Part shown: positions 18,489 to 18,967 of the stretch, piece by piece | Layout of the letters: each line of letters opens with the position of its first letter | Numbering within the stretch: position 1 is the stretch's first letter | Origin: Chitinophagaceae bacterium | GTDB taxonomy: Bacteria > Bacteroidota > Bacteroidia > Chitinophagales > Chitinophagaceae | DNA length: 64,000 bases | NCBI GenBank assembly: GCA_024508725.1 | Contig: JANINS010000002.1 | Location: forward strand, 185,481 to 249,480 | Reading direction: 5' to 3' | The notes under the pieces: model-generated | What the model was told of the DNA's origin: nothing | Database searches by the model: none | Seen by the model: only the letters and a program-made list of their open reading frames with translations | Position numbers and translations under genes: made by a program

Positions 18489-18514
18489 AAAGCGGAAATA
18501 AAACTTTCCGCTTT
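18489..18514 (-). terminator. terminator after the tRNA remnant
   Basis: A perfect 10-bp stem (AAAGCGGAAA with TTTCCGCTTT) around a 6-nt loop, followed on the minus strand by CTATTTTAC. It lies just past the 3' end of the tRNA-like sequence. Confidence 0.65.
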
Positions 18515-18517
18515 AAG

Positions 18518-18592
18518 TGGAGAATACCGGAGTCGAACCGGTGACCTTCCCGAAAGCTTTCGGGACGCTCTAGCCAGCTGAGCTGATGAGCC
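18518..18592 (-). pseudogene. tRNA-Ala remnant with palindromic anticodon arm
   Basis: The D-arm, the variable region, the T-arm and the 3' acceptor strand match the tRNA-Ala at 18854-18927 exactly. The anticodon arm is replaced by the perfect palindrome TCCCGAAAGCTTTCGGGA (18548-18565), which gives an 8-nt loop and no usable anticodon. The 5' acceptor strand (GGCTCAT) pairs with only four of seven bases of the 3' strand, so the molecule should not work as a tRNA. The D-arm doubles as the 3' end of the GIY-YIG gene. Confidence 0.75.
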
Positions 18593-18821
18593 ATTCGATA
18601 TATCTTCTACTTTTCTTTTTCTTGATCTCTGATTCTCGTTTTATAGACTCCGATCTGTTTAAGTACAACTCTTTGTACATGATTACCCAGTCATTGGCTT
18701 TTTTTGTCGATTTAGAGGAGGAGTTAATATGTTGAAACAACCTACGTTCTAAGTTTTCCGTTTGCCCGATGTAGTACTCGTCAAGTTGTTTTGAATAAAT
18801 TATGTATACATGAAAGGGCAT
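18570..18821 (-). CDS. GIY-YIG nuclease family protein
   Basis: 83 residues forming one GIY-YIG domain. The core is HVYIIYSKQLDEYYIGQTENLERRL (Tyr pair and the downstream Arg). It continues through KANDWVIMY and the Glu-containing ESIKRESEIKKKK to the SRRYIEWLI end typical of small Bacteroidota members. The family cuts DNA; a homing role is plausible from the context. The last four residues (SSAG) and the TAG stop are encoded by the D-arm of the tRNA remnant. The ATG lies directly after the T-run of the terminator that ends tRNA-Ala, with no ribosome site, so expression may depend on read-through. Confidence 0.85.
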   Translation of the reverse strand: MPFHVYIIYSKQLDEYYIGQTENLERRLFQHINSSSKSTKKANDWVIMYKELYLNRSESIKRESEIKKKKSRRYIEWLISSAG

Positions 18822-18850
18822 AAAAAAAGCTCACAATAAATGTAAGCTTT
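18822..18850 (-). terminator. terminator after tRNA-Ala
   Basis: A 10-bp stem with one G-T pair (AAAGCTTACA with TGTGAGCTTT) and a 5-nt loop, followed by a run of T on the minus strand. It separates tRNA-Ala from the GIY-YIG start codon, which follows the T-run directly. Confidence 0.75.
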
Positions 18851-18853
18851 AAG

Positions 18854-18927
18854 TGGAGAATACCGGAGTCGAACCGGTGACCTCTTGCATGCCATGCAAG
18901 CGCTCTAGCCAGCTGAGCTAATTCCCC
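18854..18927 (-). tRNA. tRNA-Ala (anticodon GGC)
   Basis: A 74-nt cloverleaf on the minus strand. The acceptor stem GGGGAAT pairs with ATTCTCC (one G-T pair) and the discriminator is A. The D-arm is AGCTCAGCTGGCTAGAGC. The anticodon stem CTTGC/GCAAG holds loop ATGGCAT, giving anticodon GGC, which reads GCC and GCU. The T-arm is CCGGTTCGACTCCGG. The CCA end is not encoded. A full promoter lies just upstream. Confidence 0.95.
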
Positions 18928-18935
18928 AGAGCTTG

Positions 18936-18967
18936 CAAATGTATTGGTAGGCTCTATCACTTGCAAA
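18936..18967 (-). promoter_or_regulatory. promoter of tRNA-Ala
   Basis: On the minus strand TTTG, 20 bases, then TACATTTG. This is the full Bacteroidota -33/-7 pattern at the expected spacing, ending 9 nt before the tRNA. It is the clearest promoter in the window. Confidence 0.75.

Follow-up and report, generated by a model that had tools for sequence, protein, structure and literature searches.

The closest known system to the one described here is phage SegB, a free-standing GIY-YIG homing endonuclease found in T-even phages. It cuts within tRNA genes and causes the tandem amplification of tRNA-segB units; how SegB's own genome escapes cutting is called unexplained by its authors (PMC13096335). 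The sections of that report drawn on here describe, as at the present locus, a GIY-YIG nuclease adjoining tRNA genes and tandem repeats of tRNA and nuclease gene with no favoured tRNA isotype, but they concern a phage gene and do not mention a replacement tRNA half carried by an element, a remnant marked with a hairpin or hairpin units lacking the gene (PMC13096335). The SegB motif RAWTSGAAC given in the same sections (PMC13096335) is, by our reading of its letters, the reverse complement of the tRNA T-loop. The present protein differs from SegB in being 83 amino acids long and consisting of the catalytic domain only. SegB is longer and has a further DNA-binding domain.

Several other systems share single features with the locus. 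tRNA genes are classic integration sites, and tyrosine-recombinase elements target a tRNA gene and restore the tRNA by means of a tRNA part that they carry. Both properties recur here, but the unit is about 0.3 kb long and contains no ORF of recombinase size, and the displaced copy has its hairpin at one of the internal arms. REP/RAYT systems likewise combine short palindromes, gene-less copies and one small nuclease gene, although their nuclease is of the Y1 HUH type rather than GIY-YIG, and the palindrome core found here occurs at one genomic place. The E. coli tyrT tandem repeats also place units with part of a tRNA gene after a tRNA; we know of no nuclease gene or exchanged anticodon arm in them. 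A tRNA-splitting GIY-YIG element, or a tRNA-palindrome cassette of the kind that the initial annotation of this DNA had also thought undescribed, was not found among the matches listed by searches of the open-access PMC literature or by a check for selected terms in the 2006 GIY-YIG survey (PMC1564403). Taken as a free-standing homing-like GIY-YIG element, it would be new in its hairpin-marked remnant, in the tRNA half that it carries and in its gene-less units.

The window, which is the whole stretch of 64,000 nucleotides analysed, contains a single tRNA called by ARAGORN, a tRNA-Ala(GGC) at 18853-18927 on the minus strand that scores 64.3 bits against the Rfam tRNA model. All features of the locus lie on this strand, on which the intact tRNA is followed by a terminator-like hairpin with a T run (18822-18849), by the 83-amino-acid GIY-YIG nuclease gene (18570-18821), and by a broken tRNA-Ala copy (18518-18592) that comprises a displaced 3' half and an altered 5' part and overlaps the 3' end of the gene. 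The initial annotation had described this order of intact tRNA, nuclease gene and second tRNA copy, and it is confirmed by the ARAGORN call, by a Pfam GIY-YIG match of the protein at 3.8e-14 and by the score of the broken copy against the Rfam tRNA model (30.3 bits, with a gathering score of 29). Several of its finer points were also recovered. The two copies share exactly a 38-nt block, in the remnant at 18510-18547, which covers the variable loop, T-arm, acceptor 3' strand and 3' flank, and a 19-nt D-arm block at 18566-18584, whose first 15 nt supply the last four codons and the stop of the gene (S S A G stop). The 5' acceptor strand of the remnant no longer pairs, three acceptor pairs being broken, and terminator-like hairpins can be read after both copies. 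By analogy with the Flavobacterium sites described below, the hairpin 3' of the remnant (18489-18514) is presumed to be the native terminator of the tRNA and that at 18822-18849 would have been delivered by the element, while the intact tRNA itself may have been rebuilt from a host 5' part and an element-borne 3' part.

Between the two shared blocks, the palindrome TCCCGAAAGCTTTCGGGA (18548-18565) replaces the anticodon arm, which is kept in the intact tRNA. The exchange of the arm for a palindrome is thus real, as had been claimed, but the intact arm (CTTGCATGGCATGCAAG) is already nearly palindromic, so that the palindrome here alters the sequence rather than adding much symmetry. An exact search of the 3.88-Mb genome places its 16-nt core at a single site, and the core pattern of the intact tRNA-Ala, with up to 3 mismatches allowed, also occurs at one place, so that the tRNA gene is apparently single-copy. 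An Rfam search of 18400-19050 found no intron family at E up to 1 and the tRNA is whole; the element would be of the free-standing type rather than intron- or intein-borne. No ORF longer than 83 amino acids is present in the unit, between or within the tRNA copies.

The GIY-YIG domain occupies residues 3-72 of the protein. Y6, Y17, G19, R27, H31 and E63 are invariant in 23 of 23 aligned relatives, placing the protein in the GIY-YIG superfamily, and Pfam recognises no DNA-binding domain beyond GIY-YIG in the 83 residues. The AlphaFold2 model has a mean pLDDT of 85.3. UPF0213 is the nearest solved relative in both sequence and fold (1zg2, 6.1e-17; Foldseek 1e-4), followed among structures by the structure-specific Slx1, with I-TevI far behind; the likeness to UPF0213 says nothing on the function of the protein, and to our knowledge UPF0213 and Slx1-like proteins are not known as tRNA-linked mobile genes. 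PADLOC gave weak partial matches only (PDC-S14, 2e-4, 29 residues), and PHROGs gave weak matches to homing-endonuclease families, with no more than 8 of the 23 members matching any one family. Selection on the protein is purifying, with a median dN/dS of 0.107 (24 of 210 pairs with dS of 0.02-1, from 21 genes), and the three closest gene pairs have values of 0.31-0.43. The genome that contains the window has six GIY-YIG matches. Two lie in long frames (611 and 440 amino acids) without a tRNA in their stretches; the other four are small genes that start 4-36 nt after same-strand tRNAs, namely Met(CAT), Ala(GGC), Arg(CCG) and Pro(TGG). A tRNA remnant lies 3' of all four; its hairpin is in the T-loop for Arg, and at the anticodon arm or next to it for Met, Ala and Pro.

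The search profile for related genes was built from 23 of 31 collected proteins, eight being dropped by eye (L019, L024, L027, L028, L029, L030, L034 and L035). It matched in 97 of 148 and then in 198 of 296 Bacteroidota genomes, counts that include lower-scoring relatives without tRNA linkage; matches at 1e-20 or better were present in 120 of the 296 (hand count). The named loci from the genome scan, the best 80 of 350, were all from Bacteroidota (80/80), within which the genomes had been sampled. Plasmid and phage records contained no match to the element, and no vehicle was found in them. The loci studied were the best hits and 80 regions picked from the best-scoring matches, so that the figures on linkage describe the high-scoring family. 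From 227 loci, 252 genes were grouped into 214 clusters, hits covering fewer than 55 profile columns having been dropped. A same-strand tRNA lies within 150 bp in 155 of the 214 clusters, and an opposite-strand tRNA in none. Fourteen further clusters have a tRNA within 500 bp, two have one inside the array, 11 are at a contig end, and in the remaining 32, which lie away from contig ends, ARAGORN calls no tRNA nearby; among these 32, a flank contains a tRNA-like stretch scoring above the best of 12 shuffles in 26 and not in six. As a control, no tRNA lies near any of 20 lower-scoring Flavobacterium GIY-YIG genes (L300-L319; 52-66 bits; stretches of 1.3-1.8 kb), while 13 of 15 high-scoring arrays fetched with them have one. 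The lower-scoring small GIY-YIG family represented by these 20 genes is itself common in Flavobacterium.

Order could be examined in 153 clusters with a tRNA and a usable other flank. It is tRNA, gene, remnant in 130 and the mirror form, remnant, gene, intact tRNA, in 23. The remnant scores above the best of 50 flank shuffles in 145 of the 153 and not in eight, the shuffles for remnants and tRNA-like stretches moving single bases. A cluster's own flank is the best match in 113 of 153 when set against 20 flanks of elements with other isotypes, a comparison in which related tRNAs are alike anyway.

Movement was followed at one tRNA-Ala locus, the neighbour gene of which was searched in 101 Flavobacterium genomes, and the best 30 loci were read. 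The genus was recognised from three of its loci, which are identical to named Flavobacterium records. The nuclease gene is present in nine of the 30, one of them (L288, G353) with an internal stop, and absent in 21, among them L279 with a broken piece and two loci whose tRNA lies on the other strand. Gene-less upstream units were found by pattern in eight of the 30, and L297 has a decayed one by eye. On the tree of the neighbour gene, gene occupancy requires 8 changes against 7.9 for shuffled labels and is therefore as scattered as chance would make it; the upstream units are somewhat clustered (5 changes against 7.3). Between L297 and L298 the nuclease gene is 97.6% identical and the neighbour gene 78.0%, with dS of 0.046 against 1.49. 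The gene is more alike than the neighbour in 198 of 276 pairs and less alike in 78, for example those of L188, some pairs being counted twice because L297/L197, L270/L169 and L271/L173 are the same genomes. The profile matches somewhere in 29 of the 30 genomes; all eight with upstream units match at 1e-25 or better, as do many without.

Alignment of the empty L296 with the filled L297, L298 and L187 places the insert within the tRNA gene. In the filled sites the host 5' flank and the beginning of the tRNA lead into a replacement 3' half with a new terminator; the gene and the hairpin come next, and then the old 3' half and the old terminator, which in L296 directly follows the tRNA. The position of the break is resolved to within the duplicated part of the tRNA, and the empty L296 tRNA has no hairpin except its own arms. 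Comparison of relatives with and without the insert had been proposed with the initial annotation, and its statement that the insert splits a tRNA gene and carries a tRNA part is supported by this alignment, by the scattered occupancy and by the contrast in dS. Two marks of a homing element, orthologous presence and absence with an alignable empty allele and transfer at the same site between lineages, were found. Mobility of the element is well supported by comparison of these sequences. The unit in the window probably belongs to a homing-like kind of mobile element in Bacteroidota that has tRNA genes as its insertion sites and would spread by nuclease cutting and recombination.

Further observations were made at these loci. 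L294, the nearest gene-less relative of L298, was set aside as an empty site for its tRNA on the other strand, and L296 was used instead. At L270, L276, L280 and L288 the hairpins of the gene-less units upstream (TCCCGATGAAAAATCGGGA type) differ from those of the gene units downstream (TCCCGATGCATCGGGA), which gives the appearance of two element lineages. The anticodon stem of the intact tRNA-Ala(GGC) differs wholesale between Flavobacterium species (L270-L299), being CTACG/CGTAG in some and CTTGC/GCAAG in others regardless of whether the site is empty or filled (11 loci read); conceivably this reflects escape from cutting. Protection of the intact tRNA by altered bases was considered, as positions 26 and 44 differ between L296 and the three filled sites, and was rejected, as the filled L276 has the L296 form. 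A clean empty site was also sought at the window's own locus by searching its nuoA neighbour in 59 genomes, of which 46 matched. Among the 30 loci returned, a tRNA is present only in the window's genome and in one genome of the same genus (L229), where a tRNA-Ala lies on the other strand near nuoA with one gene-less hairpin remnant upstream (TCCCGCAGGAGTGCGGGA, tRNA strand), so that it offers no clean empty site; this second genome has a nuclease match elsewhere.

Units occur in tandem both with and without the gene. In Chitinophaga sp. E66 (L213), six tandem units of about 110 bp separate the tRNA-Ala from the gene; the palindrome is complete in five of them and shortened in the sixth, and another shortened palindrome lies 3' of the gene. 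In Maribacter caenipelagi (L226), three 85-bp units whose palindrome is perfect and a decayed one lie upstream of the tRNA, and one gene-less unit lies between tRNA and gene. L221 has six units upstream, of which one has an imperfect hairpin, as well as three tandem gene units on the downstream side. Gene units are repeated three times in L069, five times in L325, six times in L320 and eight times in L068, with a period of 315-370 bp in L068, L069, L070 and L325. The eight hairpin-bearing units of L068 (G107:C34, about 683-3452) follow a tRNA without its 5' half, and ARAGORN finds no intact tRNA in the 4.2-kb stretch; this array seems to have outlived its tRNA. No more than about 450 bp separates the elements of L013, L017, L034, L035 and L036 from contig ends, a position to be expected of repeats, and arrays may be undercounted in draft genomes.

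Tandem arrays and decayed copies are also what an ordinary tandem tRNA duplication would leave if it had trapped a gene and were inherited vertically while decaying. This explanation is scarcely tenable given the scattered occupancy and the dS contrast in Flavobacterium, together with the finding of hairpins in remnants of tRNAs for 15 amino acids.

A pattern for hairpin remnants, which covers only some tRNAs, was found in 21 of 296 genomes, and a reversed control pattern in none of the genomes listed. All 21 are among the 198 genomes matched by the profile (P 0.00015, kinship ignored) and also among the 120 matched at 1e-20 or better (P 1.9e-9, kinship ignored). It had been proposed beforehand that palindromic copies found mostly in genomes devoid of the gene would speak against the element, and the distribution went the other way. 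To the accompanying question, whether the gene always lies next to the palindromic copy, the answer is that gene-less copies exist locally. In the cases read these lie beside gene copies or in genomes with a nuclease match elsewhere, and they may have moved in trans. The confinement of the pattern to profile-matched genomes also speaks against the view that another enzyme, such as a host or phage recombinase, makes the insertions while the GIY-YIG gene is cargo or serves a domesticated host function, for example control of tRNA copy number. The standing of tRNA genes as integration sites and the purifying selection on the protein would suit such a role; it is nonetheless very improbable, as the unit leaves little room for a further enzyme, its longest ORF being the 83-amino-acid gene and tandem units recurring at the short period given above.

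The hairpin of the displaced copy is set apart by its sequence. The longest perfect stem (loop of at most 9) reaches 7 bp or more in 101 of 144 remnants, these being the 145 above-shuffle remnants less one short one, against five after block shuffling, which moves two-base blocks and only roughly preserves dinucleotides, and 64 among the intact tRNAs, probably because the arm of tRNA-Ala(GGC) is itself nearly palindromic. TCCCG occurs within the first 7 bases of 53 of 99 distinct hairpins (stem of at least 6, loop of at most 6; 122 remnants). Other hairpins are lineage-specific, for example TCCGCC in several tRNA-Met, TGGCGC in three Pro(CGG) and CTCCGA in three Lys remnants. The hairpin often replaces tRNA positions 27-44. 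Beyond the anticodon arm described in the initial annotation, it sits in the D-arm, T-arm or variable region in some lineages: four of five tRNA-Asp cases have it in the T-arm, and several reverse-order elements have it in the D-arm. Its distance from the stop codon has a median of 10 nt and lies between -5 and 40 in 78 of 103 forward-order cases. A dispersed REP-like palindrome was considered and judged unlikely: CCCG hairpins number 107 in 61 kb near the genes against 40 in 379 kb far from them, and 11 of the 40 lie in L213, L221 and L226 and belong to gene-less tRNA units.

The inner pairs of the hairpin vary while pairing is kept. Of pairs 6-7, an average of 1.73 of 2 are formed over 26 distinct segments, against a mean of 0.94 and a maximum of 1.38 in 2000 shuffles. 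In the larger set of hairpins above the loop is 0 to 6 long, longer loops having been left out of that set. Such pairing would be expected if a structure-specific, Slx1-like nuclease acted on the cruciform-extruded palindrome or on the hairpins of tRNA arms, so that breaks would drive recombination between tRNA copies and fidelity to a tRNA would come from homology only. The variable loop, the tandem hairpin units with and without gene and the nearest solved relatives, UPF0213 and then Slx1, agree with this mechanism. We regard it as unlikely: outer TCCCG/CGGGA is common beyond the needs of pairing, the first entry into an empty site such as L296, which has no extra hairpin, needs something else, and the 26 segments include three that resemble intact arms of other tRNAs as well as related sequences.

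The pairing might alternatively be needed in RNA, if the transcribed remnant must fold so as to stay out of tRNA processing, to terminate or stabilise the mRNA of the nuclease or to act as a tRNA-like decoy, with mobility by DNA breaks as in the homing-like reading. Wobble would give the G-T or T-G that is the first unpaired position in 17 of 41 stems (hairpins with a loop of at least 4), a hint of RNA, and in several remnants (L014, L015, L112 and L128) the anticodon loop is kept and the stem exchanged. A requirement of this sort is quite improbable, since the hairpin lies 3' of the gene in one architecture and 5' in the other, gene-less copies retain it, and the remnant in the window, folded alone as RNA, has no unusual stability (z -1.23).

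The elements are not restricted to tRNA-Ala, 28 anticodon labels occurring among the linked tRNAs. On a tree of 211 proteins, of which 150 are labelled, the anticodon changes 55 times, against a mean of 97.45 and a minimum of 93 in 100 shuffles, and with Ala(GGC) left out 49 times against 81.6. Lineages therefore stay with one tRNA apart from occasional switches, a fidelity that fits either a specific nuclease or recombination limited by homology and that may in part come from vertical descent.

Comparison in Flavobacterium shows that the element adds a replacement tRNA 3' half with its own terminator, the GIY-YIG gene and the hairpin. The host promoter region and tRNA start are joined to the new 3' half and give an intact tRNA, while the old 3' half, with the hairpin in front, is displaced downstream. 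Under the homing-like reading, which we prefer, the nuclease would cut the matching tRNA gene where the insert is absent, and recombination through the flanking tRNA halves would copy the element in. As the homology arms are carried as parts of the tRNA, repair of a break in an empty tRNA gene from a filled copy would both insert the element and restore the tRNA, and the same breaks may give rise to tandem arrays and gene-less copies. In the displaced copy the hairpin most likely marks, and abolishes, the cleavage site, while its pairing answers to a further need. Of the two roles offered for the palindrome in the initial annotation, protection from cutting and recognition by the nuclease, either may apply. 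At an occupied site the intact tRNA seems no less open to cutting than an empty one, so that self-cutting would have to be tolerated or limited. Against this reading stand the bare catalytic domain and its nearness to UPF0213 and Slx1 rather than to I-TevI, a fidelity that homology alone, or in part vertical descent, could explain, the higher dN/dS of the three closest gene pairs, the clusters with no tRNA or no remnant above shuffles, and the lack of a match in plasmid or phage records that would point to a vehicle. A new class of minimal mobile element is a less likely possibility, in which a single-domain GIY-YIG nuclease, with the palindrome as an active part (substrate, binding site or RNA structure), moves and amplifies tRNA-gene units and mobilises gene-less palindrome units in trans on either side of the tRNA; such an element would be widespread in Bacteroidota, its lineages keeping to tRNAs of at least 16 amino acids.

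If the homing-like reading is true, it raises the puzzle of why the displaced copy so often gains a hairpin. The element is easily overlooked because it looks like a small gene with no known role beside a tRNA, yet few mobile elements of this major bacterial phylum would be smaller, and it would be common. It would form a chromosomal counterpart to phage SegB and would represent a natural experiment in the rebuilding of tRNA genes during insertion.
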